Origin: Amycolatopsis keratiniphila subsp. keratiniphila
GTDB lineage: Bacteria; Actinomycetota; Actinomycetes; Mycobacteriales; Pseudonocardiaceae
Direction of reading: 5' to 3'
NCBI RefSeq assembly: GCF_001620365.2
Contig: NZ_LQMT02000036.1
Coordinates: forward strand, 62,001 to 126,000
Length of the DNA: 64,000 bases
Each line of letters begins with the position of its first letter. Positions within the stretch are counted from its first letter, which is position 1. Position numbers and translations under genes: made by a program. A model generated the notes under the pieces. It had not been told where the DNA came from. It ran no database searches and saw only the letters and a list, made by a program, of their open reading frames with translations. Shown piece by piece: positions 1,604 to 47,731 of this stretch.

Positions 1604-2830
1604 TTAGCCCACCGGTCGCAGCACCTGCCGGGCCCGCTCCACCCCGTCCTCCTCACGCAGCCGCGCCGCGACGTACTGCGCGCCGCGGCGGAACAGGAGG
1701 TTGCCGGACAGCTCCAGCAGCCGCGCGGTCAGCGAGTCGGCGGTCAGCTCTCGCAGCGGGAGCGGTCGCGGCCCGGCGCCGAGCCGGAAGACCCGGTCGC
1801 CCCAGTAGGGCTGGTCGGAGAAGACCGGGCAGACCAGTGAGGGGACACCCGCGCGCAACGCGGCCGCGGTCGTGCCCGCGCCACCGTGGTGCACCACCGC
1901 CGCGGTGCGCGGGAACAGCCACGCGTGCGGAACGTCCCCGACGGTCAGCAGATCGTCTTCGTCGGCTCGGGCATCGGTACCGAGCAGGCCGCGCAACCCC
2001 ACCCGGCGCAACGCCGTGCGGACGGCCGCGAACGTCCGTTCCGCCTCCGACGGCCGCATACTTCCGAAACCGACGTACACCGGAGGCGGCCCGGACGCGA
2101 GGAAATCCCGCAGGCGCGGGTCCGGCCGCCAGGCGGCGGGCGCCTCGAGGAACCAGTACCCGGTGACGTGGACCCGCGCGGGCCAGTCCTTCGGCCGGGG
2201 CACCACGGCGTCGGAAAACCCGCACAGCACCGGGGTTTCCGTCCGCCGGGGTCCGCGCAAGCCTGCCGCGGGCAGGCCGAGTGTCCGCTCGCGCCACCGG
2301 TCGACCTCCGGCCGCAGCACCTGCCAGGCGACGGCGTCGACGGCGCGGAAGCTCAGCCGCCTGCCGCACGGCCCGGTCCTGGCCGCCCACGGCACCAGCG
2401 GATGCGCGAAGGCCCCCGTCGGCACGCTGGGCTGATAGTGCAGTTCGACGTCGGGAACGCCGAGCGACGCGCCCAGGTGCGCACCGAGAAAACCCAGCGT
2501 CGGGGCGAGCACGAGGTCCGCCCCCGCCGCGCCCTGGTGGACGTCGGCAAGCAGGCGCTCCATCACCGGGGCCAGCGCGCCGCGCAACCCGCGCAGGAAG
2601 GTCGCGGACGTGCGCCCCTCGGTCCATTCGCGTCCGCCGTCCGAACCGAGGATCTCCGCGGGATCTGCCGAAAGCGGCGCGAAATCCAGACCATGCGACG
2701 TCACCAGGGTCCGGAACCGTTCGGCCGCCAGCACCCGCACCCGGTCACCGTCGAGACCACGCCCCAAGGCGATGCACGGCTGGACGTCGCCCCGCGAGCC
2801 GGGGGCGACGATCACGACGAGCCGGCTCAT
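1604..2830 (-). CDS. GT1-family glycosyltransferase, UGT80/Rv1526c-like
   Basis: 408-aa GT-B glycosyltransferase. The N-terminal motif PGSRGDVQPCIALGRGL and the donor-site block HHGGAGTTAAALRAG, followed by P-F-DQ-WG, are typical of the sterol 3-beta-glucosyltransferase (UGT80) branch and mycobacterial relatives that glycosylate lipids. It is expected to transfer a nucleotide sugar to a lipid hydroxyl at the cytoplasmic face. It is the last gene of the minus-strand arm: its start overlaps the SDR stop (ATGA, 2827-2830). The arrangement suggests that the product of the neighbouring synthase or esterase is glycosylated (inference). Confidence 0.85.
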   Translation of the reverse strand: MSRLVVIVAPGSRGDVQPCIALGRGLDGDRVRVLAAERFRTLVTSHGLDFAPLSADPAEILGSDGGREWTEGRTSATFLRGLRGALAPVMERLLADVHQGAAGADLVLAPTLGFLGAHLGASLGVPDVELHYQPSVPTGAFAHPLVPWAARTGPCGRRLSFRAVDAVAWQVLRPEVDRWRERTLGLPAAGLRGPRRTETPVLCGFSDAVVPRPKDWPARVHVTGYWFLEAPAAWRPDPRLRDFLASGPPPVYVGFGSMRPSEAERTFAAVRTALRRVGLRGLLGTDARADEDDLLTVGDVPHAWLFPRTAAVVHHGGAGTTAAALRAGVPSLVCPVFSDQPYWGDRVFRLGAGPRPLPLRELTADSLTARLLELSGNLLFRRGAQYVAARLREEDGVERARQVLRPVG

Positions 2831-3660
2831 CGCTTCGCCGCCGTGAGCCGGTAACGGAGGCGGAACGGCAGGTTCGCCAGCACGGCGGCGATATGCGCGT
2901 CCCTGCCCACCAGGTACCGCGGCGCGGCACGGCGTGCGGTCAGCGCGTGGACCACGACCCGCGCCGCCCGCTCGGGTGGCACACCGTTCCGCGCGGACCG
3001 CTCGGCACTGCGTTCGGCCTCGTCCAGCTGCGCCGCATACCTTTCCCGCGCGGCTTCCGGCAGCGCGGCGCGCACCTCTTCGGCGGCGGTGCGAGCGCGC
3101 GACCAGATCGAGGTGGCGACGGCGCCGGGTTCGACGAGGACGACGCCGATCCCGGACGGGGCCAGCTCGGCGCGCAGGCTGTCGGTCAAACCGACCAAGG
3201 CGAACTTCGACGTGTGATACGGCCCGACCATCGGCCCCGCGATCCGCCCGCCCATCGACCCGACCGTGACCACCCTGGCACCGGACGCGGCACGCAGCGC
3301 GGGCAGCATCGCCTGCGTGACGGCCAGCTGGCCGGTGACGTTGACCTCCAGCTGTTGCCGGAAATCGTCCAGCGGGACATGTTCCAACGGTCCCGGCCTG
3401 GCCATCCCGGCGTTGTTCACCAGCCCCCGCAACGGGCCCGCCGCCGCGACCTTTTCCCCACAGGCGGCGATCGACGCCGGATCCCGCAGATCCATCCGCA
3501 GCACGGTGACCGCTTCACCGAAGGTCCGCGCGAGGTCGGTCTCGTCAGCGTCGGTGCGCACGCTGGCCCAGACGTGGGCGTCCCGCCGGACGAGTTCGGC
3601 CACGCACGCCCGGCCGATCCCGCTCGACGCCCCGGTGACCACAAAGGACGGACGGGTCAC
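2827..3660 (-). CDS. Short-chain dehydrogenase/reductase
   Basis: 277-aa classical SDR. TGASSGIG near the N-terminus binds the dinucleotide, NNAG marks the core strand, and the active site shows S (VGSMGG) and YHTSK. The C-terminal third is longer than a minimal SDR and ends in basic residues (RLRYRLTAAKR), as in 17-beta-HSD-like and lipid-acting SDRs. The start is GTG at 3660, overlapping the esterase stop by GTGA. In mycolate producers an SDR (CmrA) reduces the 3-oxo product of Pks13. This gene lies in the same locus as a Pks13-like synthase and could do the same; that is inference, as the sequence is not obviously a CmrA orthologue. Confidence 0.85.
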   Translation of the reverse strand: MTRPSFVVTGASSGIGRACVAELVRRDAHVWASVRTDADETDLARTFGEAVTVLRMDLRDPASIAACGEKVAAAGPLRGLVNNAGMARPGPLEHVPLDDFRQQLEVNVTGQLAVTQAMLPALRAASGARVVTVGSMGGRIAGPMVGPYHTSKFALVGLTDSLRAELAPSGIGVVLVEPGAVATSIWSRARTAAEEVRAALPEAARERYAAQLDEAERSAERSARNGVPPERAARVVVHALTARRAAPRYLVGRDAHIAAVLANLPFRLRYRLTAAKR

Positions 3661-4694
3661 GACGCCTCCCCCGCCTTCACCGGCTCGGCGAGGGCACGCA
3701 GCATCCGCGGCCACGTCTTGTGCAACTGGTCCTGCCAGTACGCCCAATGATGCGTACCCGCCCCGTAGAAGTCCGTCATGACCGGCACACCGAGCCGGTT
3801 CAGCCGGTCGGCCATCGCGGTCGTCTGGCCGGAACAGAGGAATTCGAGCAGCATCGCACCGGGCAGCACGTCGATCGGGAGCTTGCCGTCGAACGGCCCC
3901 GGAAGACCGTTGCCGGTGGACAGGTACAGCTCGGTGCCGCGCAGGCGATCGGCGTTCACCAGCGGATCGTGCGCGTCCCAGCGCGACGCCTCGCGACGGC
4001 GGTCGCCCCAGAGCGCTTCGGGGTCTTGCCGGGCGGAGGCGACGATCGCCCTGGTCAGCAGTTCGCCGTACGGACCCGTGGGGTTGAGGTTGCCGCTGAA
4101 CGATCCGGCGAACCGGAAGACCCCCGGCCGCCGGGCGGCGAGCTCGACCGCGCCGTAGCCGCCGAGCGAAAGCCCCGCCGCCACCCGGCGGCCGTCCCCG
4201 CGATAGCCGCGATCGATCAGCTGCGGGATCTCGACGGCGGTGAACGTCTCCCATTGATTGAGCACGACGTTCTTGCCGTAATTCCACCAGTCGGAAAAGA
4301 ACCCCGCGGAGCCCGAACCCGGCATCACCACCAGCGCGCCGGAGTCGTCGGCGAGCTTCCGGATGTCGGTGTTGGCGGTCCAGCCGCGATAATCCTGCAG
4401 CCGCGTCTCCCCGGCGAGCAGGTACACCGCCGGCCATTTCCGGTCCGGTTCGGCTGCCCACCCGGACGGCAGGATCAGCCGGACCATCGCGTAACTCCCG
4501 ACGCCGACCGAGCGCACGGTGAGGTCCAGCATCCGCGGGTCACCGTCCACAGTGGTCTGGGCCACGACGTGCGAGCCGTCGTCCGCCCTGGCGTCCGGGA
4601 CACCGCTCTCGGCTCGCGCCGGGGCCGCGACGACTCCCGGGAGCAGGCAGGTGACGGCCGCGACCGCCCACAGCCGCCTCGAAATATTGTGCAT
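3657..4694 (-). CDS. Secreted antigen-85-like esterase/acyltransferase
   Basis: 345-aa alpha/beta hydrolase of the esterase D/antigen 85 family. Residues 1-28 form a signal peptide (MHNISRRLWA, hydrophobic core, APARA cleavage site). Antigen-85 landmarks occur in order: GWTANTD, VVMPG, FFSDWW, WETF, the nucleophile elbow GLSLGGYGA (Ser176), a candidate Glu284 in MLLEFL and GTHHWAYW (His315). The spacing of Ser, Glu and His is close to that of Ag85 mycolyltransferases. Those enzymes move mycolic acids onto trehalose or arabinogalactan outside the membrane. Here the substrate is unknown; simple esterase activity is the alternative. First gene of a three-gene operon with the SDR and GT, with AAAGGA upstream of the ATG. 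Confidence 0.85.
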   Translation of the reverse strand: MHNISRRLWAVAAVTCLLPGVVAAPARAESGVPDARADDGSHVVAQTTVDGDPRMLDLTVRSVGVGSYAMVRLILPSGWAAEPDRKWPAVYLLAGETRLQDYRGWTANTDIRKLADDSGALVVMPGSGSAGFFSDWWNYGKNVVLNQWETFTAVEIPQLIDRGYRGDGRRVAAGLSLGGYGAVELAARRPGVFRFAGSFSGNLNPTGPYGELLTRAIVASARQDPEALWGDRRREASRWDAHDPLVNADRLRGTELYLSTGNGLPGPFDGKLPIDVLPGAMLLEFLCSGQTTAMADRLNRLGVPVMTDFYGAGTHHWAYWQDQLHKTWPRMLRALAEPVKAGEAS

Positions 4695-5141
4695 ACGTAA
4701 TCCTTTGTCCCGGTCGTTCGACAGAATTCGAAAATGTGACGGCGGTTACCCGAGAAAGAAAATCAGAGGTGGCGACACGTTAAGCGGAACGAGCCCCTCC
4801 AGGCAATTGTCCTGCCCACAATCCGGGAGGACAATATGAATGCCAGGGAAACAAGAAAACCATCGCCCTCCCCCAGTCGGGTGACCCATCGCTCACGGAC
4901 GGTGAGCGACTGTGGCACGGGAGTACCAGACCGGCTCGCATACCTGCGGAAAGTCCGAAATCCCCAGGTCACACCCTGTACACGAAGGACATTTACGTTC
5001 TCTTGACGCCTTCCGGTATTCGATTTCCCGTCGTAGCCTTCGTCGTGCCGCCCGGGTTCGGCGTTCCCCGACGCGACCCCGGCGCCCGCGTCCCACCGAA
5101 GGGACCACCCCTCCCCAAGGACCCTTCCGAAAGGGCTATTC
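4695..5141. promoter_or_regulatory. Divergent intergenic region of the lipid locus
   Basis: 447 bp between the start codons of the esterase operon (minus) and the FAAL/PKS operon (plus). It is more AT-rich than the flanking genes, especially 4700-4860. It must contain both promoters, but I cannot place -35/-10 hexamers confidently. Overlapping open frames here look non-coding. Confidence 0.5.
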
Positions 5142-5801
5142 ATGGCTGCCCGAATTCGCGCTCTCGTCGTGTCCGCCGCCGCGGTCGCGACCATTTCCGG
5201 CACCCCCGGAGAATCGATTCAGGCCGCGCCCGCACCGCCTCCCCCCGTCGTTCCGGAGGCCGCCCTGCTGCCACCGGAAACCGTCCCGCGAGCGTCCGCG
5301 CGCGACGGTTTCGACGTGGCCTCGGCACTGTCCACCCCGGACCGTCGAGAGAGCAGGGTCGACGTCGGCGGTTGCGAAGACGTCGTCCACGGCAGGCTGG
5401 TCCGCGACGGCGCCGCCGGCCAGGGCTTCCAGTCCGCCGTCCCCGGCGGCCAGGTCTCCGAACTGGTCGCCCGAATGACGAACCCGCCCGATCTGGCGGC
5501 CTGGGCCGCGCAGGCCGGGCGGTGCTCGAAGGTGACGGTCGACGACGCGGCGGGTACCGCGGTGTCGACCGTCACCGTCCATCCGGCTCCCGCCGTGCCG
5601 GGCGCGAAAACCCTTTCCTACGAACAACTCCTGACGCTTCCCGGGCAGCCCCCCGAGCTGCCGGGCCTGCGTCTGCGCACCGTCGCCATCGCCGCCGACG
5701 ACGTGCTGGTCGTGCTTCGTGACGCCGGGACCACCGGCCTCGATCTCGACGCGCTCGCCGTCGACGCCTGGCGGCACGCCGCCGGTCCGCTCGGCCGCTG
5801 A
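5142..5801 (+). CDS. Exported protein of unknown function
   Basis: 219 aa with an N-terminal export signal (MAARIRALVVSAAAVATISG), a Pro/Ala-rich stretch and a globular part with two cysteines (GGCEDVV and AGRCSKVTV). These may form a disulphide. The beta-rich C-terminal half loosely resembles the extracytoplasmic sensor or lipoprotein domains beside actinobacterial cell-envelope genes, but I do not recognise the family. It is the first gene of the arm leading into the FAAL (45-bp gap), so it may assist export or loading of the lipid product. GAAAGGG precedes the ATG. Confidence 0.6.
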   Translation: MAARIRALVVSAAAVATISGTPGESIQAAPAPPPPVVPEAALLPPETVPRASARDGFDVASALSTPDRRESRVDVGGCEDVVHGRLVRDGAAGQGFQSAVPGGQVSELVARMTNPPDLAAWAAQAGRCSKVTVDDAAGTAVSTVTVHPAPAVPGAKTLSYEQLLTLPGQPPELPGLRLRTVAIAADDVLVVLRDAGTTGLDLDALAVDAWRHAAGPLGR

Positions 5802-5846
5802 ATCCCTCGCACCACCCCGCCGAACGCCGAACCCCGAGGAGACGTC

Positions 5847-7583
5847 ATGTCCTTGGCCCCCGAAAACCTGCCCGCCACGGCCGGCCCCACCCTTCCCGAC
5901 TGCCTCCGGCATTGGGCGGACACCGACGGCGACCGGCCGGCGGTCACCTTCACCGACTTCGCGACCGATCGCGCCGGGCGACGGCGGACGCTGACGTGGA
6001 AACAACTCAAGGACCGCGTCGACGCCGTCGCGGGCGCGCTGCCCGTCCGGGCCGGTGACCGGGTGGCGATCCTGTGCCCGCAGAGCGCCGAGTACGTCGT
6101 CGCCTTCCTCGGCGCGATCACCGCGGGCGCGATCGCCGTGCCGCTGTTCGATCCCGGGCTGCCTGGGCACGCCGGACGGCTCGCCGCGGTACTGACCGAC
6201 TGCTCCCCCACCGCGGTGATCACCACCGCCGCGGCCGAGGACGCGGTCCGCGAGTTCCTGGCCGGCCTGCCCGGCGGCGAGCACGTCACGGTCGTCGCGG
6301 CCGACAAGGCCGGACCTGTCCGCGCCTGGCCCGCCCCGGCTCCGGCGCCGGACGACGTGGCGTATCTGCAATACACCTCCGGCTCGACGCGCAGCCCGGC
6401 CGGAGTGGTGCTGACCCACGAGAACGTGCTCGCCAACGTCCGCCAAGCGGTCCACGGGCTCGGGATCGCACCGACGGGGACCACGGTGTCGTGGCTGCCG
6501 TTGTTCCACGACATGGGTCTCGTGCTCGGCTTGATCACGCCGCTGGCGATGGGCATGCGATCGGTGCTGATGGATCCGCTGGCCTTCATCGAACGCCCGG
6601 TGCGCTGGCTGGAACTGCTCGGCGACCACAACGGGAGCTGGAGCGCCGCCCCGAACTTCGCCTTCCACTACACCGCGAGCCGGGTGCGCGAGGAAGACCG
6701 CGGCAAGCTCCGTCTCGACCGCGTCGCCGCGATCGTCAACGGCGCCGAGCCGATCAACCCCGGCGTGCTCGACCGGTTCCACGAAACCTTCGCCGAAGCC
6801 GGGTACACCCCGGACAAGACCCGGCCCGCGTACGGGCTGGCCGAGGCGACCGTGTTCGTCACCACCGGCCCCGGCGTTCCGCCTCGGGTCACCACGTTCG
6901 ACCGCGCCGCGCTGGGCGCCGGAACGGCACGGCCGTCGGACGACGGGCTCAAGCTGGTCGCCTGCGGTGTCCCGGTGGGCCAGCGAGTCGCGCTGGTCGA
7001 TCCCGAAACCGGCGTCGCCTTGAAGGACGGTTCGGTCGGCGAGATCTGGGTCCACGGTCCCAACGTCGGCACCGGCTACTGGCAGAAGCCCTTGGAGAGC
7101 ACCGAAACCTTCGGCGCGAGGCTGACCGGCGACCACGAGGGGCTGCCGGCCGGCCCTTGGTTGCGCACCGGCGACCTCGGCGTCCGGTACGACGGCGAGG
7201 TCTACATCGCGGGCCGGATCAAGGACCTGCTCATCGTCGACGGCCGCAACCACTACCCGCAGGACGTCGAAGCGACGGCGGCCTCGGCCGACCGCGACAT
7301 CCGCCCCGGCAGTGTCGCCGCGTTCGCCGTCGAAGGCACCGACACCGAAGCCGCGGTCGTCGTCGCCGAGCACCGCGGCCACAGCGCGCTGACCACCGAG
7401 GACGAGCGGGCGCTCGCCGCGGCGGTCCGGCGGCTCGTTTCCGACGCGCACGGCCTCGCGCTGCGCGACGTCGTGCTCGTCCCGGCGGGCCTGGTCCCGC
7501 GGACCTCCAGCGGCAAGATCGCGCGGAGCGCCTGCCGCGACCGTTACCTCGCCGGCGATTACGGAAAGGCCTTGGTGCGATGA
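5847..7583 (+). CDS. fadD32: Fatty acyl-AMP ligase, FadD32-like
   Basis: 578-aa adenylate-forming enzyme. The A3 loop YTSGSTRSPAG (176-186) with an Arg after the Thr, the WLPLFHDMGL block, YGLAEATVFV and the C-terminal SGKIAR lysine are all present. FadD32 has the same TR.PAGV and LAEAT signatures. FAALs activate long-chain acids as acyl-AMP and hand them to an ACP rather than to CoA. The gene overlaps the PKS by ATGA (7580-7583), and that PKS starts with an ACP, exactly as FadD32 loads the N-terminal ACP of Pks13. Orthology to fadD32 is inferred from sequence plus neighbourhood; another FAAL class remains possible. Confidence 0.85.
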   Translation: MSLAPENLPATAGPTLPDCLRHWADTDGDRPAVTFTDFATDRAGRRRTLTWKQLKDRVDAVAGALPVRAGDRVAILCPQSAEYVVAFLGAITAGAIAVPLFDPGLPGHAGRLAAVLTDCSPTAVITTAAAEDAVREFLAGLPGGEHVTVVAADKAGPVRAWPAPAPAPDDVAYLQYTSGSTRSPAGVVLTHENVLANVRQAVHGLGIAPTGTTVSWLPLFHDMGLVLGLITPLAMGMRSVLMDPLAFIERPVRWLELLGDHNGSWSAAPNFAFHYTASRVREEDRGKLRLDRVAAIVNGAEPINPGVLDRFHETFAEAGYTPDKTRPAYGLAEATVFVTTGPGVPPRVTTFDRAALGAGTARPSDDGLKLVACGVPVGQRVALVDPETGVALKDGSVGEIWVHGPNVGTGYWQKPLESTETFGARLTGDHEGLPAGPWLRTGDLGVRYDGEVYIAGRIKDLLIVDGRNHYPQDVEATAASADRDIRPGSVAAFAVEGTDTEAAVVVAEHRGHSALTTEDERALAAAVRRLVSDAHGLALRDVVLVPAGLVPRTSSGKIARSACRDRYLAGDYGKALVR

Positions 7584-10500
7584 GAAACCCGTCGTTCGAC
7601 ACCCCCACGCTGCGCCGCTGGCTGCTGGACACCGTCGCCGGGCACACCGGCGTCGACGCGGCCAGGCTCGAAGCCGACCGCCCGCTCAGCGACTACGGCC
7701 TGTCCTCCCGCCAGGCCGTCGGTATCGCCGCGGACCTCGAAGATCTGCTCGGCACCCCGCTCCCGGCCACCCTGCTGTGGGAGAGCCCGACCATCGACCA
7801 CCTGGCCCGCTCGCTCACCGGCGGCACCGAGCCCGAACCCGAACCGGCGGGCACCGACCGTCGCCGGACCGATCCGATCGCCGTCGTCGGCCTCGGCTGC
7901 CGCTGGCCGGGTGCGGACGGCCTCGACGAGTTCTGGGAACTGCTCCGCAGCGGGCGGGACGCCGTCCGGACCGCGCCGCCGGGCCGGTGGAGCGCCGACG
8001 CGGCACCGATCGTCGGCGGGTTCCTCGACGACGTGGCCGGTTTCGACGCGGACCACTTCGGCATCACTCCGCGTGAAGCGTCCACAATGGACCCACAACA
8101 GCGGATGCTGCTGGAGGTCGCCTGGGCCGCGCTCGAACACGCCGGGATCGCCCCGGCCTCCCTTCGCGGCAGCCGGACCGGCGTGTTCACCGGGATCTCG
8201 ACTCACGACTACGGCCACCTCACGATGGCGGGCGGCGGCGTGGATCTGTGGACCGCCACCGGCGCGGCCGGGAGTATCGCGGCCAACCGGCTCTCCTACG
8301 TCTACGACCTGCGCGGGCCGAGTATGGCGGTGGACACCGCCTGCTCCTCGTCGCTGGTCGCGGTGCACCACGCGGTCCGCGCGCTGCGTGACGGCGAGGC
8401 GGATCTGGCCTTGGCGGGCGGGGTGAACCTCATGCTGCTACCCGGCCCGACGGCCGCGTTCGCCGCGGCGGGGCTGCTCGCCGGGAACGGCCGATGCAAG
8501 ACGTTCGCCGCGGACGCCGACGGCATCGCGCGTGCCGAGGGCTGCGGTGTCGTCGTGCTCAAGCGGCTGGCGGACGCCGAATACGACGGGGACCGGGTGC
8601 TGGCGGTGATCCGCTCCACCGCGGTCAACTCCGACGGGCGCTCGCAGGGCATGGCCGCACCGAACCCCGTCGCGCAGCAGGACATGCTGCGCACGGCGTA
8701 CCACGGCGCCCGGCTCGATCCGTCCACTGTGGACTACGTCGAGGCGCACGGCACCGGCACGTTGCTGGGCGACCCGATCGAGGCCCGCTCGCTCGGCGCG
8801 GTGCTCGGCAAGGACCGTCCCGCCGACGCACCACTGCTGATCGGCTCGGTGAAGACGAACATCGCGCACGCGGAGGCGGCCGCGGGGATCGCCGGGCTGA
8901 TCAAGGTCGTCCTCGCGATGACCCGGGACGAACTGCCGCCTCAGCTGCACTTCACCGCCCCCAACCCGCATATCCCGTTCGACGACCTGCGCCTGAAGGT
9001 GGTGACCGAGCCGACGCCGTGGCCGCGCCGGTCCGGCCGCGCCACGGCAGGAGTGTCCGCGTTCGGTTTCGGCGGGACCAACGCGCACGTCGTCCTCGAA
9101 CAGGCGCCGCCGCCGGAGCCGGTCCCGGACCGCGGTGACGTCCGCATCGGCCTGCTGTCGGCCCGCACTCGCGACCGCCTCACCGAACGCGCGACGCAGC
9201 TGGCGAACTGGCTGGAGGCCACACCTTCGCTGTCCCTGGCCGACGTCACCCACACCCTCTCCCGGCGCGACAACGGCGGTCCGCACCGCGCGGCCGTCGT
9301 CGCCGGGGACACGGCCGAGCTGGCCGGGCTGCTGCGCGCCGTCGGCTCCGGCGCCGATCCGCTGCCCGCGGGCGCGGTCACCGGCACCGCGCGGAGTACC
9401 GACGGGCCGGTGTTCGTGTTCTCCGGCCACGGCTCGCAGTGGCCGGGCATGGGGCAGGGACTGCTGGCCGCCGAACCCGCGTTCGCCGCACAGGTCGACA
9501 AGCTCCACGACCTGTTCACCGAACACACCGGCCGCTCGCTGCGCGCCCTGCTCACCAGCGGGGATCCCTTGTCCCTGCCCGAAACCCAGACGGCCATTTT
9601 CGGGATCCAGATCGCGCTCGCCGCCCAGTGGGAGGCACTCGGCGTCCGGCCCGCGGCCGTCGTCGGGCACTCCCTCGGCTCCGCGGCGGCCGCCGTGGTG
9701 AGCGGCGTGCTCACGCCCGACGAGGCCGTCCACCTGGTCGCGACCCGGGCCCGGCTCCTGGGCACCATCGGGCCCGGCGGCGCGATGGCGGCGGTCGAAC
9801 TCGCGCCGGAAGAGCTGGACCTGTACCCGGACATCGAACTCGCCGTCGAATCCGCACCCGGTCAGCTGACCGTGGCCGGGGACGCGCTCGTGCTCGACCT
9901 CCTGGTCGCGGAACTCGAAGCCGCAGGACTGCGGGCACGTCGGCTGCCGGTCGAGGTCGCCGGGCACTCCGCCCGTGTCGACCCGGTGCTGCCCGCGCTG
10001 CGGGAGGCGCTCGTCGAACTGGGCGGCCGTCGTCCGACGGTTCCTTGGTACGACACGGTTCTGGCCGATCCGCGGGAGCTGCCGGACTTCGACGCCGGGT
10101 ACTGGGCCACGCATCTGCGGCGTCCGGTGCGGTTCCGGCAGGCCGTGGCGGCCGCCGCCGCGGACGGGCACCGCGTGTTCCTCGAAGTGTCGCCGCATCC
10201 GATCCTGCGGGGTTCGGTGGCGAGGACGCTCGAAGCAGAGGGGATCGACGACGCGCTCGTCACCGGCACCTTGCGCCGGGGCCAGGACGAGGTCCGCGCG
10301 CTGGGCGCCGCCGCGGCCGAGCTGTACTGCGCGGGAACCCGGATCACCACCGCCGATCCGGACGACGGGGCCCGGCTGGTCGACGTCCCGCCGATGCCGT
10401 GGCGGCACGAACGGCACTGGTACACCTCCGCCGAGGAAACACCGTCGTTCGCGGCAAGCACTCCCGAGCCCGAGCCCGTGCGGAGCGGCGGAGGCGACCG

Positions 10501-11776
10501 GCTCACCGAGATCGTCGCCGCCGTCATGGGGCTGCGTCCCGACCGCCTCGACGCCCACGTCCCGCTGGTGGAACTCGGACTGGATTCCCTGATGGCGAAC
10601 CGGATCCGCGAGGCCGTCCGCCGGGAGTTCGGCACCGAACCCGACTCGGCCGCCGTGCTCCGGGGCGCCACGCTCGCCGATCTCAGCCGCGATCTCGCGC
10701 CCCGCGAGAACGAGGAACCGCTGCCGTCCCGCGGTCGCGCCTGGGACGCGGCGGACCGGCTGGTGCTGCGCCTGTGGCAGGAGCACACCGGCACCGAAGC
10801 GGCGGGCACGCACGTCCGGCTGACCGAGACAGCCGCACCGGACCGGCTGGCCGAGCTGCTCGCCAAGGGGCTCGGCACCGAACTCGCCACGCCTGTCGAC
10901 GCCGCCGAACTCCGTCGGCACGACACGCTCGCGGCCATCGCCGACGTCGCCCGAACGGTTCTCGACACGCGGGAGGAGCGAGGGCCGGTGCACGTCCTCG
11001 CGCCCGGTGAGGCCGGAGTCGCGCCGCTGCTGCTGTTCCACCCCGGCGGCAGCACCTGCACGGTGTACCGGCCGCTGCTGGAGCGGCTGCCCACCGGTGT
11101 GCCGTGCGTCGGGTTCGAACGCGTTCCCGGTGTCAGCATCGAGGAACGGGTCGAGCAGTTGCTGCCGTTGGTGCGGGAACAACGTCGCGACCGGCCGTAC
11201 CGGCTGGCGGGCTGGTCGTTCGGCGGGGCGTTGGCGTACGGCGTCGCCGCGCGGCTCGCCGAAGAAGGCGAGGAGGTCGAGTTCGTCGCGCTGATCGACA
11301 CGATGCTCCCGCTTCCGGAGCCGGACCTCGATCCGCGGGCGTCATCGGCCCGGCGGTTCCTGCGCTTCACCGGATACGTCGAAGGGACCTACGGCCGCGA
11401 AGTGCGGCTCGGCCACGAAGAGCTCGCACCGCTACCCGAAGAGGAGCAGATCGAGCTGACCATGCGACGGGTGGCCGAAGCGGGCTTGCTCAGCCCAGGC
11501 GTGCTCCGGCACCAGCGTCAGTCCTTTTTGGACACACTGGCGGCCGAACGCGGTACGCCCCGCCGCTACGACGGACGGGTCGTGCTCTACCGGGCGACCG
11601 AGCAGTACGCGGCCGGGCTGGCGATGGAACCCCGGTACTCGCGCACGGATCTCGCGGCGGGCTGGGCGGAACTGTGCCCGGGGCTGGAGATCGTGCCGGT
11701 CGAGGCGCATCACCTGTCGGTGGTCGACCCGCCCCACGTCGATGTCGTGGCGAGGCATCTGACGGAACTCCTGTGA
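7580..11776 (+). CDS. pks13: Pks13-like condensing polyketide synthase (ACP-KS-AT-ACP-TE)
   Basis: 1398-aa type I PKS. ACP1 spans about 8-80 (DYGLSSRQA, Ser42/43). KS spans 97-507 (Cys255 in DTACSSS, His390 in EAHGTGT, His430 in NIAHAEAAAG). AT spans about 611-930 (VGHSLG, Ser698). ACP2 spans about 972-1040 (LGLDSL, Ser1003). TE spans about 1140-1398. There is no KR, DH or ER. This order is that of mycobacterial Pks13, which condenses a meroacyl chain with a carboxyacyl chain and passes the product to trehalose. The TE is especially close: LLFHPGGST, GFERVPG, SIEER and GWSFGG, with Ser1213, Asp1240 and His1377 spaced like the Pks13 triad. Shorter than Pks13 (about 1730 aa), mainly in linkers. 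Coupled to the FAAL upstream and the exporter downstream. No carboxylase subunit (AccD4) is seen in the window. Confidence 0.88.
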   Translation: MRNPSFDTPTLRRWLLDTVAGHTGVDAARLEADRPLSDYGLSSRQAVGIAADLEDLLGTPLPATLLWESPTIDHLARSLTGGTEPEPEPAGTDRRRTDPIAVVGLGCRWPGADGLDEFWELLRSGRDAVRTAPPGRWSADAAPIVGGFLDDVAGFDADHFGITPREASTMDPQQRMLLEVAWAALEHAGIAPASLRGSRTGVFTGISTHDYGHLTMAGGGVDLWTATGAAGSIAANRLSYVYDLRGPSMAVDTACSSSLVAVHHAVRALRDGEADLALAGGVNLMLLPGPTAAFAAAGLLAGNGRCKTFAADADGIARAEGCGVVVLKRLADAEYDGDRVLAVIRSTAVNSDGRSQGMAAPNPVAQQDMLRTAYHGARLDPSTVDYVEAHGTGTLLGDPIEARSLGAVLGKDRPADAPLLIGSVKTNIAHAEAAAGIAGLIKVVLAMTRDELPPQLHFTAPNPHIPFDDLRLKVVTEPTPWPRRSGRATAGVSAFGFGGTNAHVVLEQAPPPEPVPDRGDVRIGLLSARTRDRLTERATQLANWLEATPSLSLADVTHTLSRRDNGGPHRAAVVAGDTAELAGLLRAVGSGADPLPAGAVTGTARSTDGPVFVFSGHGSQWPGMGQGLLAAEPAFAAQVDKLHDLFTEHTGRSLRALLTSGDPLSLPETQTAIFGIQIALAAQWEALGVRPAAVVGHSLGSAAAAVVSGVLTPDEAVHLVATRARLLGTIGPGGAMAAVELAPEELDLYPDIELAVESAPGQLTVAGDALVLDLLVAELEAAGLRARRLPVEVAGHSARVDPVLPALREALVELGGRRPTVPWYDTVLADPRELPDFDAGYWATHLRRPVRFRQAVAAAAADGHRVFLEVSPHPILRGSVARTLEAEGIDDALVTGTLRRGQDEVRALGAAAAELYCAGTRITTADPDDGARLVDVPPMPWRHERHWYTSAEETPSFAASTPEPEPVRSGGGDRLTEIVAAVMGLRPDRLDAHVPLVELGLDSLMANRIREAVRREFGTEPDSAAVLRGATLADLSRDLAPRENEEPLPSRGRAWDAADRLVLRLWQEHTGTEAAGTHVRLTETAAPDRLAELLAKGLGTELATPVDAAELRRHDTLAAIADVARTVLDTREERGPVHVLAPGEAGVAPLLLFHPGGSTCTVYRPLLERLPTGVPCVGFERVPGVSIEERVEQLLPLVREQRRDRPYRLAGWSFGGALAYGVAARLAEEGEEVEFVALIDTMLPLPEPDLDPRASSARRFLRFTGYVEGTYGREVRLGHEELAPLPEEEQIELTMRRVAEAGLLSPGVLRHQRQSFLDTLAAERGTPRRYDGRVVLYRATEQYAAGLAMEPRYSRTDLAAGWAELCPGLEIVPVEAHHLSVVDPPHVDVVARHLTELL

Positions 11777-13263
11777 CCACGGCCCGGGCCGAGCGAGCGG
11801 TCGACCGCGCCTGGCCGCTTTTGGCGGTACTCGGCGCCGGGCTCTTCCTCGTGGCGGTCGACGCGACCGTGCTGCACGTCGCGTTGCCCGACCTCGTCCG
11901 GCAGCTGCGGCCGGGCGCGGCGGCTCAGGTGTGGATCGTGGCGATCTACCCGCTGACCGCCGCGCCGCTGCTGCTGCCGTTCGGCACCCTCGGCGACCGG
12001 TACGGGCGGCGGCGCGTACTGGTCGCCGGGTACGTCGTGTTCGGGATCGCGTCGCTCGGCTGCGCGTTCGCGCCGAACGTGCCGGTGCTGCTGGCCTGCC
12101 GCGCGCTGCTCGGCTGCGGCGGCGCGATGATCATGCCGGTGACGATGTCGCTGCTCCGCGAACTGTTCCCGGATCAGCGGCGTCGTCGCACGGCGATCGC
12201 GGTGTGCAGCGGGATCGCGGGCACCGGCTCGGTGTTCGGGCCGATCCTCGGCGGCGTGCTCGTCGAGGTGTGGGGCTGGCGGGCCACGTTCCTGCTGAAC
12301 CCGCCGGTGATCCTGGCCGCGGTGGTGCTTGCGGTGCGCTGGCTCCCCCGGAATCCGCCCGGGCGGCGGCCGTGGGACGCGGTCAGTGCGGCGCTCGCGG
12401 CTGGCGGTGTCCTCGGGATCGCTTTCGCCGTCGGGCATCCGGGCGCCTGGAGCACGGCCGTCACCTCCGGCCTGACCGGATGTGTCCTCATCGGACTGTT
12501 CCTGCGCCGCCAGCGCCGGACCGACCCGCCGCTGCTGGACCTCGCCCTGTTCCGGCGGCCGGGAGTGCGGCCCGCGGTCGGCGGAGTGCTGCTGGTGATG
12601 AGCACACTCGTCGGGCTCGGCCTGCTGTTCGCCCAATATCTGCAGGTGGTGCTCGGGCTTTCGCCTACAGCGGCGGCGGGCCGGCTGCTCCTCGTGTTGG
12701 GCGCGTCGGCCGTCGGCAGTGTGGTCACGCCTTCGCTGCTGGGCCGTTTCGGCAACGCCCGGGTCCGTACGGCCGGGTTCGCGGTGGCGGCGGTCTCCTT
12801 GCTGGTCCCGGCGGCGGGTTCGGCGGCGCTGACGTCACCAGTGCTGCTGGGTGCGGGGCTGACCGGGCTGGGCCTGGGGATGGCGCTCGCGCTGACTTCC
12901 AGCACCGACACCCTGCTTTCGGCGACGTCGGCGGACCAGGCGGGTGGTGCCGCGGCGGTGGAGAAGACCGGCTACGAATTGGGTGCCGGCTTCGGGACGA
13001 CGGTGTTCGGTTCCCTGGCCGCCGCCGTGTACGCGGGACACCTGGCAGTCCCGGCGGGCGTGCCGGAACCGGCGCGAGCGCTCGCGTTGTCAGGCCCGGC
13101 TCAAGCGGAGGCGGCCGCCTCAGGCCTCACGTCGCATTTAGCCGACGAATTGCTCGACGCCGCGAAAGCCGCCTGCACCACAGGGCTTCAGGTGTCGGCG
13201 GCGGTCGCTTGTGGGGCGTTCGTGGTGGCCGTGCTCGTCAGCTCGGGCGTGCCTCGTCGGTGA
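11773..13263 (+). CDS. MFS exporter, DHA2 (14-TM) family
   Basis: 496-aa polytopic membrane protein. Motif A appears as [11 protein letters not shown] between TM2 and TM3, motif C-like [12 protein letters not shown] lies in TM5, and the hydrophobic segments fit 14 TMs. DHA2 members export drugs and, in some actinobacteria, lipids. The GTG start at 11773 overlaps the PKS stop by GTGA, so it is the last gene of the exported protein-FAAL-PKS operon and the likely exporter of that product (inference). The 3' end overlaps the convergent VOC gene by 26 bp. Confidence 0.88.
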
Positions 13264-33423: not shown

Positions 33424-34047
33424 TCAGGCGGCAGCCAAAGCGGTCACCCGCCACTTCCCCTCGGCCCGTTCCGCACTCACGCTCAGCTGAGCCGCCCCCG
33501 TGCTCCGCTGGCCGTCACCCCGAACACCGGTCTGGTCGAGAAACACCAGCAGCGACGCCCGATCCCCGTCGAGGACCTTGACGCCCGAGACCACCGCAGT
33601 CGAGGTCACCACCAGCTTCTGCTCCGCCGCGAGCCCTCGCACCTGCGCGAAAAGCTGGTCGTACTGTCCCAGCGCCGGCCCGGTGAGGACCGCCTTCGCG
33701 GCTTGCTCGCTCTTGGCGGGGTCGTCGTAGCGGTAGGAGAAGACCGTGCCGAGCGCCTTGCCGATCTGGTCGCTGACCTCGGCGGTGGTGGCGACGTCGG
33801 TCAGCGCGGTGTTGTGTGTCAGCGCCGCCGTGGCGTCCCGCGCCTCGATGGCGAACCACCCCGCGAGGCCCGCCATCACCAGCGCGACCGCGCCGAACAC
33901 CATCGCGCCCCGCCGGCGCACCGGAACCACGACCGGATCATCGGGGACTTCCTCGACAGGAGCGTCGAGCACCCGGGTGGTCCCGCCCATCTTCCCGGCC
34001 ACCTTCACCGCGCGCCGTGCCGGTTTGTCGGCTCGTTTCGTGGTCAT
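33424..34047 (-). CDS. Mce-associated membrane protein (second)
   Basis: 207 aa: basic N-terminal tail, one TM helix (AMVFGAVALVMAGLAGWFAI, about 48-68), then a periplasm-side VirB8/NTF2-like domain with conserved LTDVATTAEVSDQIGKAL and FSYRYDDPAKSE. Mam proteins close actinobacterial mce operons and are thought to stabilise the transporter. Last gene of the operon; the start ATG at 34047 lies 11 bp after the preceding stop. Confidence 0.85.
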   Translation of the reverse strand: MTTKRADKPARRAVKVAGKMGGTTRVLDAPVEEVPDDPVVVPVRRRGAMVFGAVALVMAGLAGWFAIEARDATAALTHNTALTDVATTAEVSDQIGKALGTVFSYRYDDPAKSEQAAKAVLTGPALGQYDQLFAQVRGLAAEQKLVVTSTAVVSGVKVLDGDRASLLVFLDQTGVRGDGQRSTGAAQLSVSAERAEGKWRVTALAAA

Positions 34048-34058
34048 CGCGTCCTCCG

Positions 34059-34562
34059 TCAGGGCTTTCCGGTGTCGGTCACCGGCACCTGGCCGAGCGA
34101 CGTGACGCGCCACCCGTCCGGCGTCCGCGTCAGGCCGGCGCGGAACCGGTTGTGCTTGGTCACCGCTTCCCCGCCTTCGGGCCGCACTTCGAGTTCGACC
34201 GAAGCGATCACCTCGGCCGTCCCGCCGCCACTGTCCACTTCGGTCACCGCGGCATCGACGACCCGGCCGGTGGTGACGGTCTTCGCCTGGCCGATCCGGC
34301 CGAGGCCGCCTTCCCGGTCCCGCGCCAGCTCTTCGTGGAGCGCACCGCCGGACAGGTTCAGCCAGTTCTGGTAACCCTGTTCCGCCTGCCGGTAGTCCAA
34401 AGTGGTCAGTGCGGCGACCGATTGCCTGCCCGCCTGCAAGGCCTCGTCGCGGACCGTGGCCCGCGCGACGCCGTCGTCGTGGCTCGCGTCCCACCACGAG
34501 TAGCCGAACCAGGCCGCCGCCGCGGTGGCGACGGCGGCGAGAAATGCGGCGATCCGGGTCAT
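34059..34562 (-). CDS. Mce-associated membrane protein (first)
   Basis: 167 aa: a TM helix at the N-terminus (IAAFLAAVATAAAAWFGYSW), then an NTF2-like extracytoplasmic domain (TLDYRQAEQGYQNWLNLSGG, later GWRVTSLGQVPV). Same family as the next gene. Begins 5 bp after mceF, so it is translated with the operon. Confidence 0.85.
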   Translation of the reverse strand: MTRIAAFLAAVATAAAAWFGYSWWDASHDDGVARATVRDEALQAGRQSVAALTTLDYRQAEQGYQNWLNLSGGALHEELARDREGGLGRIGQAKTVTTGRVVDAAVTEVDSGGGTAEVIASVELEVRPEGGEAVTKHNRFRAGLTRTPDGWRVTSLGQVPVTDTGKP

Positions 34563-34567
34563 GGCCT

Positions 34568-35668
34568 TCACCTCCTGGGCACGTTCTGCGAGCCGCGCAC
34601 GTTCGTCGGGTTGCCCTTCGGCAGGGCACAGCGCGCCGCGGTGTTCAGCGGACGCGGCGAGGTGTCGAGTCCGTCCCGATAGCCGGTCCCGTAGCCGGTG
34701 ACGCATGGCGGCGGATCGAAGAACGTCAGCGAGAGACCGACGTGCGCGCCGTCCGGCCCCATGATCGCGTGCCCGGCGGCGACCGCTTTCGGCGCGGTGA
34801 CCAGCAGCTGCTCGATGCCGTCCTGCCGCGTTTCCAGGACGTCCGCGGTGGTCAACAGGTTCGCCAGCAGGATGCCGAGGCTGGGCCCGGTCTCCCGCAG
34901 CAGCGTGCTGACCTCGTTCGCGGCCGCCGGGACGGCCGGGATCAGCCGTCGCAGATCGCCGTCGGAGCTCTTCAACGTCGCGGCGAGCAGTTTCGCGTTC
35001 GCGCCGAACGAGCGGATCGCGTCCGCCTGCGAGACCTGGGTGTCGAGCACGGTCTGCGCGTCGGTCACGAACCTGGTCAGCGGGCCGACGTGCGCGCTCG
35101 CCGCCTGCACGAACTCGATTCCCCTGCCGACGAGTTGGTCCAGCGCCGGGCCCGCGTCGGACGTCGCGTTGTACAGCTCGTCGACCACGGTCCGCAGCGC
35201 GGGCTTCGGCACCGAGTTCGCGAAAGAGTCCACACTGGACAGGACGACGTCCACCGGCAGCGGGATCTTCGTATCCGCCTCGGCGATCACCGAACCGTCC
35301 CGCAGCATGGCGCCGTTGTCGCGGCGCGGCCGCAGGTCGACATACTGCTCGCCGACGGCGGATCTGTTGGCGACGACGGCTTCGGTGTCCGCGGGTACCT
35401 CCGGGCCGCCCGGCTCGATTTCGAGATCCACCTCCATGCCGGAAGCGGTCAGACGCAGTTCGCCGACCCGGCCGATCGGCACGCCCCGATAGGTGACCTC
35501 GGCGTTGCTGAAGATGCCGCCGCCGGTGGCGAGCCGCACCTTGACGGTGTACCCGCGATCGAGCACCAGTTTGTCGAGCCCCGCGTACGTCGCGCCGACG
35601 TACGCGACGCCGACGACCGCGATGGTCACGAAGACCACCAGCTGCACGCGGACGAACTTGGTCAACAT
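34568..35668 (-). CDS. mceF: MCE family protein, MceF position
   Basis: 366 aa. One N-terminal TM helix (VQLVVFVTIAVVGVAYVGAT), the MCE/MlaD domain (about 35-115, with VTYRGVPIGRV), and a long helical needle domain (about 120-290) that in MCE complexes forms the lipid channel. The C-terminus is short and polar. Sixth MCE subunit of the operon; its ATG overlaps the MceE stop by one base. Confidence 0.88.
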   Translation of the reverse strand: MLTKFVRVQLVVFVTIAVVGVAYVGATYAGLDKLVLDRGYTVKVRLATGGGIFSNAEVTYRGVPIGRVGELRLTASGMEVDLEIEPGGPEVPADTEAVVANRSAVGEQYVDLRPRRDNGAMLRDGSVIAEADTKIPLPVDVVLSSVDSFANSVPKPALRTVVDELYNATSDAGPALDQLVGRGIEFVQAASAHVGPLTRFVTDAQTVLDTQVSQADAIRSFGANAKLLAATLKSSDGDLRRLIPAVPAAANEVSTLLRETGPSLGILLANLLTTADVLETRQDGIEQLLVTAPKAVAAGHAIMGPDGAHVGLSLTFFDPPPCVTGYGTGYRDGLDTSPRPLNTAARCALPKGNPTNVRGSQNVPRR

Positions 35669-36645
35669 CAGCGGCCACCACTGTTCTTGAAGGTCAGGAA
35701 GGTGTTCAGGTAGTCGCCGCGGATGGCCTCCAGCGCGGCGTCGGGGAACGGGAAGGTGAAGATCATCTCCATCGCCTTCGGCAGTTTGTCCCCGGAGTCG
35801 GCCAGCTTCCGCAGCAACGGTTCGAGTGCCTTGAGGTCGGCGACGAGGTCGTCCTTGCTGCGATTCACCGTCTCGACCGCGACCGAAGTGAGCCCGTCCA
35901 ACGACTTCAACATCCCGACCAGCGCCTGACGCTGCTGATTCAGCACCTCGATGCCGGGGGTGAGTCCGTTCAGCGTCGCCTTGATCTCTTCGGTGTTCGC
36001 GTTCAGGGTCGCCGCGAGCCTGTTGACGCTCTCGATGGCGCGGGTGATCTCCGCCTTGTGTTCGTCGAGCCCGCGGACGAACACGTCCAAATTGGACAGC
36101 AGGCTGCGGGCCGCGCTCTCCTTGCCGCCGAGCGCGTCGTTGAGTTCGCGGGTGATGTTCTGCACCTGCGCGACACCACCGCCGTTGAGCAGCAGGGAAA
36201 GCGCGCCGAAGACCTCCTCGATCTCAGGGGTCAGCGAAGAACTGGCCAACGGGATCACCGCGCCGTCGGCCAGCCGTCCGCTCGGCGTCCCCTCCGGAGG
36301 CGGCGCGAGCTCGACGAACTTCTCGCCGAGGATGCTCGCCTGCCGCAGTCGCGCGACCGCGTTGGCAGGCAGGTTCACGTCCCCGTTGATGATCAGGCCG
36401 ACCACCGCGCTGCGGCCGTCAGGTGCCAGATCGACGGTCCGCACCTGGCCGACCGGGACGTCGTTGACCTTCACCCCGGACTGGGGCACGAGGTCCAGCA
36501 CGTTGGTGAAACTCGCCGTGACGTGGATCGGGCGCTCCCCCAGTGCGGCCCCGCCCGGTAGCGGGATGTCGTAGACGTCGACGCCGTCGCTGCAGCCGGT
36601 GGCGGCCAGCACGAGGACGAGTACCGCGGCGATCCGGGTTTTCAT
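35668..36645 (-). CDS. mceE: MCE family lipoprotein, MceE position
   Basis: 325 aa. Signal peptide with lipobox LAATGC (Cys18), as in the LprK/MceE subunit, which is the only lipidated MCE. The MCE domain (about 38-118) contains VKVNDVPVGQVRTV and LRQASILGEKFVEL; a helical channel segment follows (ITRELNDALGG onward). It has no long C-terminal tail. Overlaps the MceD stop by 4 bp. Confidence 0.9.
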   Translation of the reverse strand: MKTRIAAVLVLVLAATGCSDGVDVYDIPLPGGAALGERPIHVTASFTNVLDLVPQSGVKVNDVPVGQVRTVDLAPDGRSAVVGLIINGDVNLPANAVARLRQASILGEKFVELAPPPEGTPSGRLADGAVIPLASSSLTPEIEEVFGALSLLLNGGGVAQVQNITRELNDALGGKESAARSLLSNLDVFVRGLDEHKAEITRAIESVNRLAATLNANTEEIKATLNGLTPGIEVLNQQRQALVGMLKSLDGLTSVAVETVNRSKDDLVADLKALEPLLRKLADSGDKLPKAMEMIFTFPFPDAALEAIRGDYLNTFLTFKNSGGR

Positions 36646-40886: not shown

Positions 40887-41722
40887 CCGGACACCTTCAC
40901 CGTGGTGGTCGCGCCCCAGATCGCCAGGCTGAGAAAGAGATCGAGCACGCTGATCAGCACGATCGACGTGCGCACCGCGCGGCCGACCGCGACGCCGACG
41001 CCGGCCGGGCCGCCCGCGGCGCGATAGCCGTAGAAGCAGTGCGTGAGGATCACGCCGACGCTGAACACGAGCACCTTGCCGAACGACCACAAGACGTCTT
41101 CTGGAGGCAAGAACAGGGAGAAGTAATGGTCGTAGGTGCCGCCGGACTGTCCGAAGAAGACCACCGTCGTCACCCGCGAACCCAAGTACGAGATCAGCAG
41201 GCCGATCACGTAGAGCGGGATGATCGCGATGAACCCGGCCACGATCCGCGTGGTGACGAGGTACGGCATGCTGCGCACGGCCATCACTTCGAGCGCGTCG
41301 ATCTCTTCGGAGATCCGCATGGCGCCCAGTTGCGCGGTGAACCCGGCGCCGACCGTCGCGGACAACGCGAGCCCCGCCGAGAGCGGCGCGATCTCGCGGG
41401 TGTTGAAGTACGCGGTGAGGAAGCCGGTCATCGCGGAGATGTTGATCTGGTTCAGCGCGCTGAAACCCTGAAGCCCCACCGTGATCCCGGTGAACACGCA
41501 CAGCCCGACCATCACGCCGACGGTGCCGCCGATCACCGCGAGCGCCCCACTGCCGAAGGTCACTTCGGCGAGGAGGCGCACCACTTCGCGGAAGTAGCGG
41601 GTGACGGCCATCGGGATCGCCGCGAGCGCGCGGATGTAGAACAGCAACTGGTCGCCCAGCTCGAAAAGACTGTTCCCGGGGCGTTTGAACGCCTCGCGGG
41701 CCCGTTCGGGGACGCTGGTCAC
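40883..41722 (-). CDS. yrbEB: MlaE/YrbE-family permease (YrbEB)
   Basis: 279 aa integral membrane protein. Core motif ISEEIDALEVMAVRSMPYLVT is the EQ-loop-like signature that docks the ATPase; five to six TM helices surround it. Works with YrbEA and an MceG-type ATPase to energise the MCE channel. Overlaps mceA by ATGA; 4 bp separate it from yrbEA. Confidence 0.9.
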   Translation of the reverse strand: MTSVPERAREAFKRPGNSLFELGDQLLFYIRALAAIPMAVTRYFREVVRLLAEVTFGSGALAVIGGTVGVMVGLCVFTGITVGLQGFSALNQINISAMTGFLTAYFNTREIAPLSAGLALSATVGAGFTAQLGAMRISEEIDALEVMAVRSMPYLVTTRIVAGFIAIIPLYVIGLLISYLGSRVTTVVFFGQSGGTYDHYFSLFLPPEDVLWSFGKVLVFSVGVILTHCFYGYRAAGGPAGVGVAVGRAVRTSIVLISVLDLFLSLAIWGATTTVKVSG

Positions 41723-41726
41723 GGGA

Positions 41727-42530: not shown

Positions 42531-42532
42531 CG

Positions 42533-47411: not shown

Positions 47412-47415
47412 CGGC

Positions 47416-47715: not shown

Positions 47716-47731
47716 GCTCTGCTCCTTGCTC

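Follow-up and report, generated by a model that had tools for sequence, protein, structure and literature searches.

What is a locus resembling the mycolic acid condensation and transfer system doing in an actinomycete of a genus described as mycolate-free? The locus lies in Amycolatopsis keratiniphila subsp. keratiniphila (RefSeq assembly GCF_001620365.2; a 9.09-Mb genome in 72 contigs), on a stretch of 64,000 nucleotides (contig NZ_LQMT02000036.1, positions 62,001 to 126,000 of the forward strand) which was analysed as a whole and which we refer to, with its own numbering, as the window. Seven genes at 1604-13263 are arranged as two divergent units: on the minus strand a GT1-type glycosyltransferase (GT), a short-chain dehydrogenase/reductase (SDR) and an esterase, and on the plus strand a small protein, a fatty acyl-AMP ligase (FAAL), a polyketide synthase (PKS) and a major facilitator superfamily (MFS) transporter. 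A sequence-only reading of this DNA had seen here a module of the FadD32, Pks13 and antigen 85 type, perhaps ancestral or diverged, in a host apparently without mycolates. The last point agrees with the description of the genus, which is given as lacking mycolic acids (PMC8930869), and the kinship with the mycolate system stands, but the module is not isolated, and the ancestral reading and the likeness of the SDR to CmrA have to be amended. We conclude that the locus is sister to the module for mycolate condensation and transfer and probably works in a similar way, with scores below the membership cut-offs for both Pks13 and FadD32.

The synthase (7580..11776, plus strand; 1398 aa) is the centre of this argument. 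Pfam finds in it a ketoacyl synthase (KS), an acyltransferase (AT), two PP-binding stretches and a thioesterase (TE), and its domain order is ACP-KS-AT-ACP-TE, where ACP is acyl carrier protein; the FadD32-like FAAL gene (5847..7583, plus strand; PF00501, PF23024) overlaps it at an ATGA, and the gene coordinates and domain order thus bear out the overlapping FAAL-synthase pair that had been described. Compared with solved proteins, the whole PKS matches Pks13 first (E 1.5e-268, 897 bits), the next family being mycocerosic acid synthase (MAS, 654 bits), and the TE matches Pks13 at 1.1e-44 and the next protein at 4.5e-10; by these sequence searches both are closest to Pks13 among solved proteins, by wide margins. 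Catalytic residues are S42 in the first ACP, C255/H390/H430 in the KS, S698/R723/H796 in the AT, S1003 in the second ACP and S1213/D1240/H1378 in the TE, and all 11 of the positions checked match one mycobacterial Pks13 as well as two paralogues in the same genome (B and C, below). The TE blocks said to be shared with Pks13 (LLFHPGGST, GFERV.G, SIEER and GW.FGG) are found in the PKS as FHPGGST at residue 1153, GFERV at 1178, SIEER at 1186 and GWSFGG at 1211. The spacing of 27 between Ser1213 and Asp1240, also put forward as a Pks13 trait, is indeed equal to that of one mycobacterial Pks13, but the two paralogues have it too, which makes it a feature of the family rather than of Pks13 by itself. 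Identity to the mycobacterial Pks13 is 53% in the KS, 33% in the AT and 39% in the TE, and to paralogue C 66%, 48% and 45%, respectively.

By curated standards the window synthase is not Pks13 itself: against NCBIfam NF040607 (the Pks13 equivalog; cut-off 2100 bits) it scores 1278.7, below the cut-off, whereas all three mycolata controls exceed it (2826.8, 2583.5 and 2239.8). With the window TE as query, two further sites appear in the genome, each beside a PF00756 esterase. Module B (L042) reads MFS, FAAL, PKS (2048 aa), esterase and module C (L043) reads MFS, FAAL, PKS (2138 aa), carboxyltransferase, esterase; both PKSs have the order ACP-KS-AT-DH-KR-ACP-TE, that is, with a dehydratase (DH) and a ketoreductase (KR), and both also fall below the Pks13 cut-off (1193.8 and 1331.8, respectively). 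The locus is thus one of three modules in this genome and one branch of a wide family. Module C repeats the gene order of fadD32-pks13-accD4 and has a mycoloyltransferase-like gene as its neighbour; in corynebacteria that operon adjoins the PS1 gene (PMC5936774). In a careful AccD tree, 22 cluster carboxyltransferases, with that of module C among them, and 15 mycolata AccD4 proteins form one clade (support 100/97). Sister to this clade is a group that we take to be AccD5/PccB-like (99/95). An AccD4-type carboxyltransferase is therefore present in the genome, in module C and outside the window block. Of the eight MMPL-matching proteins of the genome, all of which were scanned, none reaches the MmpL3 cut-off of 1400 bits (best score 267), and an RND permease and SecD/SecDF account for three of them.

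Phylogeny places these synthases in a single family in which true Pks13 is nested. The careful KS-AT tree has 60 rows, 12 of them outside modules, and like the AccD, FAAL and concatenated trees it was thinned, with near-duplicates and far rows dropped. The Pks13-like family forms one clade in it (98/85); the 12 modules, taken from hits in four genomes, fall outside, and an ordinary modular PKS origin of the KS was rejected. Together with the solved-protein searches, this upholds the proposal that KS and TE are kin to Pks13 rather than to ordinary PKSs. Eight mycolata Pks13 rows form a clade of their own (100/100) which lies inside successively larger clades of the family (34 rows, 92/93; 40 rows, 99/94). 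The window type (type A) groups with loci of another genus of the host's family (g42) at 100/99 and falls outside the mycolata Pks13 clade. The best tree joins these two groups with Pks13, at a support of just 23/6, and a quick tree of concatenated FAAL, KS-AT and TE (41 rows, with seven DH-KR rows chosen as the root) puts them, a DH-KR locus (L114) and Pks13 together at 90; with 23/6 in one tree and an extra row in the other, a proven sister relation of type A to Pks13 is not upheld. An arrangement in which Pks13 is the sister of the rest of the family was weakly rejected (approximately unbiased test, p 0.033), a result on which we do not lean alone. These comparisons suggest a broader family of which Pks13 is probably a derived branch, with the window type as its possible closest sister; the Pks13-like domain order of the window type may have come from loss of DH and KR. 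The trees thus support the kinship in the earlier proposal of an ancestral or diverged mycolate system, but not the ancestry of the window type. Two synthases outside the family were also placed. A fourth KS-AT relative in the host genome (L299, at G000:C4:49925-52459; 50% to the window PKS) groups with a mycobacterial module (L293), and the nearest outside module of all (L288) sits just beyond the family border and is a KS-AT of a cluster region in genome G089.

The esterase (3657..4694, minus strand; putative triad Ser176-Glu284-His315 in conserved columns) is apparently secreted and is mycoloyltransferase-like by both sequence and predicted fold. Against solved proteins it matches Corynebacterium glutamicum PS1 at 8.5e-52 and Ag85A at 2.3e-29, with the best match outside that family at 1.3e-12. 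Its AlphaFold model (mean pLDDT 83) retrieves with Foldseek mycoloyltransferases, Ag85 or MPT51 in rows 1-29 (4.9e-26 to 2.1e-16), and esterase D follows in row 30 at 2.5e-16, close behind MPT51 at 2.1e-16. The fold is evidently shared with esterase D, so the sequence match is the stronger argument for mycoloyltransferase kinship. The esterase of module C, used as query in place of the window's, matches 18 of 19 PF00756 proteins from three mycolata genomes (33.7-154.4 bits), whereas five of seven PF00756 proteins outside the clusters, from the host and one genome of family f33, are unmatched and the others score 13.8 and 16.0 bits, in a test that left short hits out. Sequence search and fold ranking both counter an assignment to ordinary FrmB/esterase D-type enzymes, and on both the ranking of mycoloyltransferases ahead of these is as the earlier reading had expected. 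Fold, the Ser-Glu-His positions (by analogy) and the best matches are those of antigen 85/PS1, but identity between the window esterase and the best-matching solved structures is about 30%.

The remaining genes fit around this core. The best solved matches of the FAAL are 5d6j/5ey8 (labelled acyl-CoA synthase), 5hm3 (FadD32), 8hd4 (FadD23) and 3e53 (FadD28), at E 1e-137 to 1e-105, 5EY8 being given elsewhere as FadD32 (PMC11837247), and the first substrate-labelled CoA ligase is an oxalate-CoA ligase at 1.1e-26; by sequence the enzyme is closest to FAALs rather than to acyl-CoA ligases. It scores 552.9 against the FadD32 model NF038339, below the cut-off of 975 bits. The SDR (2827..3660, minus strand; PF00106 1.9e-43; its end at about 3660 is taken from a likely GTG start) is probably a beta-keto reductase, and matches generic SDR models in NCBIfam, all below cut-off among the 25 shown, in a comparison that did not include a CmrA sequence; it can count at most as a candidate orthologue of CmrA, to which the sequence-only reading had likened it. 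An SDR of the window type (at least 45% identity) stands near 11 of 15 non-mycolata loci without KR and none of 49 with KR (Fisher p 2e-9). The glycosyltransferase (1604..2830, minus strand) has an EryCIII-like C-terminal domain (PF06722, 1e-16) and a GT28 N-terminal domain (PF03033, 2e-6). Its homologues lie beside nine of nine type A loci with a complete PKS, in five clusters of a different family at 47-52% and in two further clusters (L129 and L180) at 54-57%, a recurrence which supports a place for the enzyme in such pathways. The MFS transporter (11773..13263, plus strand; PF07690 7.2e-47) is a putative exporter, with efflux MFS models as its best NCBIfam matches. Ahead of the FAAL lies a small secreted-looking protein (5142..5801, plus strand). 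All ten type A loci have a match to it, but the match in L051 is fragmentary and that in L046 is frame-shifted at the end. The model of the window protein (mean pLDDT 80) resembles, with a template modelling (TM) score of about 0.5, an Rv0999 orthologue, TiME and the extracellular domain of PknH, all mycobacterial (Foldseek 4tmd 3e-5, 7cu9 3e-4 and 4esq 1.3e-3), a PknH extracellular-domain-like fold, and its Pfam matches to DUF5642 and PknH_C are below cut-off.

The block is thus larger than first described, since it also includes the glycosyltransferase, the small protein and the transporter, while the coordinates confirm that esterase and SDR diverge from the FAAL and PKS, across an intergenic region at 4695..5141. 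Overlaps of a few bases, at the likely starts, link esterase, SDR and GT on one side (the likely GTG start of the SDR at 3660, read from the sequence, overlaps the esterase stop) and FAAL, PKS and MFS on the other. Gene calls came from a custom script, which leaves start positions unsure, and secretion of the esterase and the small protein was judged by eye from the N-termini rather than by a signal-peptide program. When the window together with L046-L048 is set against L049, L050 and L052-L054, the two sets have the block in common and no flanking gene at more than 55% identity, so we put the block borders at about 1604-13263. Between the window and three distant type A loci (L050, L053 and L054), codon positions 1 and 2 of six genes differ by 9-19% and position 3 by 32-50%: the window locus is intact and bears a codon-position signal of purifying selection. 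One type A locus (L051, in genome G061) is degraded, with a PKS fragment called, FAAL present and the small protein in pieces, with no esterase or GT found in place and with only a distant SDR match (35%); it has one flanking gene in common with L046 and L047. A plasmid search returned partial matches only, none covering 80% of the query.

How widely such modules occur was surveyed in overlapping genus, family, order and class samples, scoring 5-25 candidates per genome, which leaves absences unsure. Within the genus the window TE is matched in 64 of 80 genomes (E<=1e-15), and a window-type orthologue at 82% or more is present in 38 of 80; a second family member (E<1e-45) accompanies it in 37 of these 38 genomes vs 24 of the other 42. 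At E<=1e-25, matches occur in 87/297 genomes and 20/46 genera of the family sample, 65/249 genomes and 14/69 genera of the order sample (true Pks13 included) and 49/345 genomes and 15/127 genera of the class sample. The family-level search that the sequence-only reading had proposed thus yields relatives in 20 of the 46 sampled genera, and other actinomycete families have them as well. Named relatives come from the best 80 of at least 458 matches, 37 of those 80 loci being annotated; among the matches listed, Amycolatopsis kentuckyensis is of the window type, A. thailandensis, A. coloradensis, A. roodepoortensis and A. regifaucium are of the module C type, and others belong to Saccharopolyspora, Actinopolyspora, Actinokineospora, Crossiella, Actinosynnema, Frankia, Streptomyces, Actinacidiphila, Thermomonospora and a Patulibacter metagenome-assembled genome (MAG). 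Patulibacter is a genus outside the class Actinomycetes; its locus (L137) reads FAAL-PKS(ACP-KS-AT-DH-ACP-TE)-carboxyltransferase-MFS, provided that the binning is right.

The loci examined number 83: the window locus and modules B and C were joined by 80 survey hits, chosen by hand for diversity, so that the counts are no census. A complete PKS is called in 79 of them (L051, L062, L063 and L125 were left out), 64 non-mycolata and 15 from a family (f8) which we take as mycolata because each of the three PKSs tested from it scores above the Pks13 cut-off. Within 7 kb of the 64 non-mycolata synthases there is a FAAL in 58 cases, an esterase in 52, an MFS match in 49 and a carboxyltransferase in 21, with FAAL, carboxyltransferase and esterase together in 16; a KR is detected in 49 and a DH in 39. 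The 15 mycolata loci have 15 FAAL, 15 AccD, 14 esterase, no KR, one MFS and no GT. The KR-less non-mycolata loci comprise nine of type A, the two of g42 (L081 and L082) and four of another family (group S, L066-L069), the last four being among the 21 that carry their own AccD. DH-KR-bearing clusters (paralogues B and C, and those of Saccharopolyspora, Actinokineospora, Crossiella, Frankia, Thermomonospora and others) resemble the window in PKS, esterase, mostly FAAL and often MFS, but unlike it they reduce inside the synthase, by the KR and usually the DH. Two of the group S clusters (L066 and L068, family f33; 4.4-15 kb) read carboxyltransferase-FAAL-PKS (without DH or KR)-esterase, followed by a PucR-type regulator and a cutinase, assigned by Pfam in L066 (cutinase PF01083, 1.6e-41) and by likeness in L068. 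They are possibly the nearest match in gene content outside the mycolata, resembling the mycobacterial Rv3799c-Rv3804c neighbourhood, which we take to hold a cutinase-like gene. Elsewhere in the survey, two Pks13-like TE matches (L062 and L063, in G089 and G189; 35-37%) end multi-protein PKS clusters rather than one-module synthases, and four clusters of family f31 (L070, L072, L083 and L084) have esterase, GT and MFS with no FAAL called in the fetched stretch.

In the known pathway, a FAAL loads the fatty acid, AccD4 provides a carboxyacyl extender, and condensation is followed by TE transfer to trehalose and reduction by CmrA (PMC7065075, PMC8733736). Starting from the observed gene content, homology, catalytic residues, linkage, conservation and phylogeny, we infer a comparable route for the window locus, in which the substrates, the product, the direction of transport and the order of the fourth to sixth steps are conjectural. 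The FAAL would adenylate a fatty acid and load it on the N-terminal ACP, and the AT would load a carboxylated acyl extender, probably from an AccD-type carboxyltransferase encoded elsewhere (e.g. that of module C). The KS would join both, leaving on the second ACP a beta-keto acyl chain with an alpha branch, which the TE, by analogy with the transfer of Pks13 to trehalose, would release onto an acceptor; the product of the synthase should on this analogy be an alpha-branched beta-keto ester or acid. The stand-alone SDR may then reduce the beta-keto group, in place of the KR built into the synthases of most relatives, and a sugar may be added or supplied by the glycosyltransferase. Finally, the MFS protein would export the product and the secreted esterase would shift its acyl group to the final acceptor outside. 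The locus shares with the fadD32-pks13-accD4 operon a FAAL overlapping an ACP-KS-AT-ACP-TE synthase, a Pks13-type TE, catalytic residues and a neighbouring mycoloyltransferase-like protein. It differs in its sub-threshold Pks13 and FadD32 scores, in a stand-alone SDR and GT, in the lack of a linked AccD (the AccD4-type subunit in the same order is found in module C), in an MFS protein in place of MmpL3 and in a host genus described as mycolate-free. Rhamnolipid-type or phenolic-glycolipid pathways likewise place a GT beside an enzyme forming a beta-hydroxy acid, but we know of none that pairs a Pks13-type synthase with a mycoloyltransferase-like esterase.

Several observations weigh against this reading of the locus. 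The AT is only 33% identical to its mycobacterial counterpart, so that extender length may differ greatly, and the block lacks a carboxyltransferase gene. The AT motif is VAGH in nine of nine type A rows and GAGH or GASH in 15 of 15 mycolata rows; HAFH occurs in none of 79 aligned ATs and the Arg is kept in all 79. VAGH also occurs in seven of the 49 DH-KR-type rows (mostly GAGH, 21; VAAH, 7), however, the g42 motif is VACH, and YASH, which is of the methylmalonyl type, is found in one relative (L061). Since VAGH is said to permit no precise prediction of specificity (PMC10646177) and the motif varies among relatives, we dropped it as a guide to the extender. The FAAL is nearly as near to FadD23 as to FadD32 in the solved-protein search, and the FAAL tree does not group type A with g42, whose FAALs fall with FadD28-like rows (90). 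The 11 SDR-bearing loci form one clade (nine A and two g42), and hence nearly one event, which the Fisher p ignores, and the four KR-less group S loci are without a window-type SDR. The product of the locus, lastly, is a prediction.

Despite these points, we think it fairly likely that this is a non-mycolate sister to the system for mycolate condensation and transfer, and that its product is a beta-hydroxy acid with an alpha branch, probably glycosylated, exported and transesterified outside the cell. A competing account, on balance unlikely but to be taken seriously, holds that this is an ordinary FAAL-primed one-module secondary-metabolite cluster, with malonyl- or short alkylmalonyl-CoA as the AT substrate and an esterase that acts as a hydrolase in maturation or clean-up. 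Such a cluster would make a simple (glycosylated) lipid of the beta-hydroxy or 2-alkyl kind, for example a biosurfactant. The MFS transporter and patchy occurrence (38/80 genomes) look like those of a biosynthetic cluster, and both the unreadable AT specificity, with YASH in one relative, and the missing carboxyltransferase suit it; it accommodates less readily a mycoloyltransferase-like esterase within 7 kb of 52/64 non-mycolata synthases, a TE of Pks13 type and the AccD4-type enzyme of paralogue C. That same paralogue, with the gene set and order of an operon that serves, together with cmrA, as a marker of mycolate synthesis (PMC5936774), would be the best candidate if one of the modules were a functional orthologue making true mycolic acids overlooked by chemotaxonomy. 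Overlooking is conceivable: in PMC8930869 mycolates were sought by matching masses to known mycolic acid structures, and A. solani, in which an unidentified glycolipid was recorded, was found to lack mycolic acids by thin-layer chromatography (PMC11004387), so an unusual short or glycosylated lipid, or one with unusual chains, could have escaped. True mycolates are nonetheless improbable in view of the Pks13 scores of all three synthases, well under a cut-off that every mycolata control passes, the DH and KR of modules B and C and the low MmpL3 scores. That the module no longer functions and is left over from a mycolate pathway which the lineage has lost seems to us very improbable; the degraded L051 (one of ten fetched type A loci) and the frame-shifted small protein of L046 are what such a history might leave, but the window block is intact, with its catalytic residues and purifying selection, the window-type orthologue persists in 38 of 80 genomes and true Pks13 is nested, not basal.

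Two other parts of the window may concern lipids. At 33424-43240 there is an mce-type operon, in which a MlaE-like permease and a Mce4_CUP1/MlaD protein are identified by Pfam and the rest is assumed from position. A second lipid-like cluster at 45499-57870 has two large KS/AT proteins near an EryCIII-like glycosyltransferase, one of them with a KR and a weakly matched nitronate-monooxygenase-like domain; we presume that it may be a synthase of the polyunsaturated fatty acid (PUFA) or hglE type.

Our open-access literature search found no description of Pks13-like clusters in Amycolatopsis or other mycolate-free actinomycetes, and the words Pks13, Amycolatopsis and Pseudonocardi- are absent from a recent FAAL review (PMC11837247). 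The clusters therefore point to a lipid class without a description in the literature searched, and they offer non-pathogenic organisms for the study of Pks13- and Ag85-type enzymes, which are tuberculosis drug targets. The presence of operon kin in a genus described as mycolate-free and in other actinomycete families means that operon homologues alone cannot mark mycolate synthesis. More tentatively, we suggest that mycolic acid synthesis arose from widespread actinomycete clusters for secreted (glyco)lipids, in which four enzymes (FAAL, Pks13-type synthase, AccD4-type carboxylase and mycoloyltransferase-like esterase) already cooperated before there was a mycomembrane, and that the window type is a living sister which would make a secreted, glycosylated mycolate-like lipid. 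Whatever their products, these clusters can serve as outgroups in tracing how mycolic acids and the mycomembrane arose, and the origin of the pathway thereby becomes testable.

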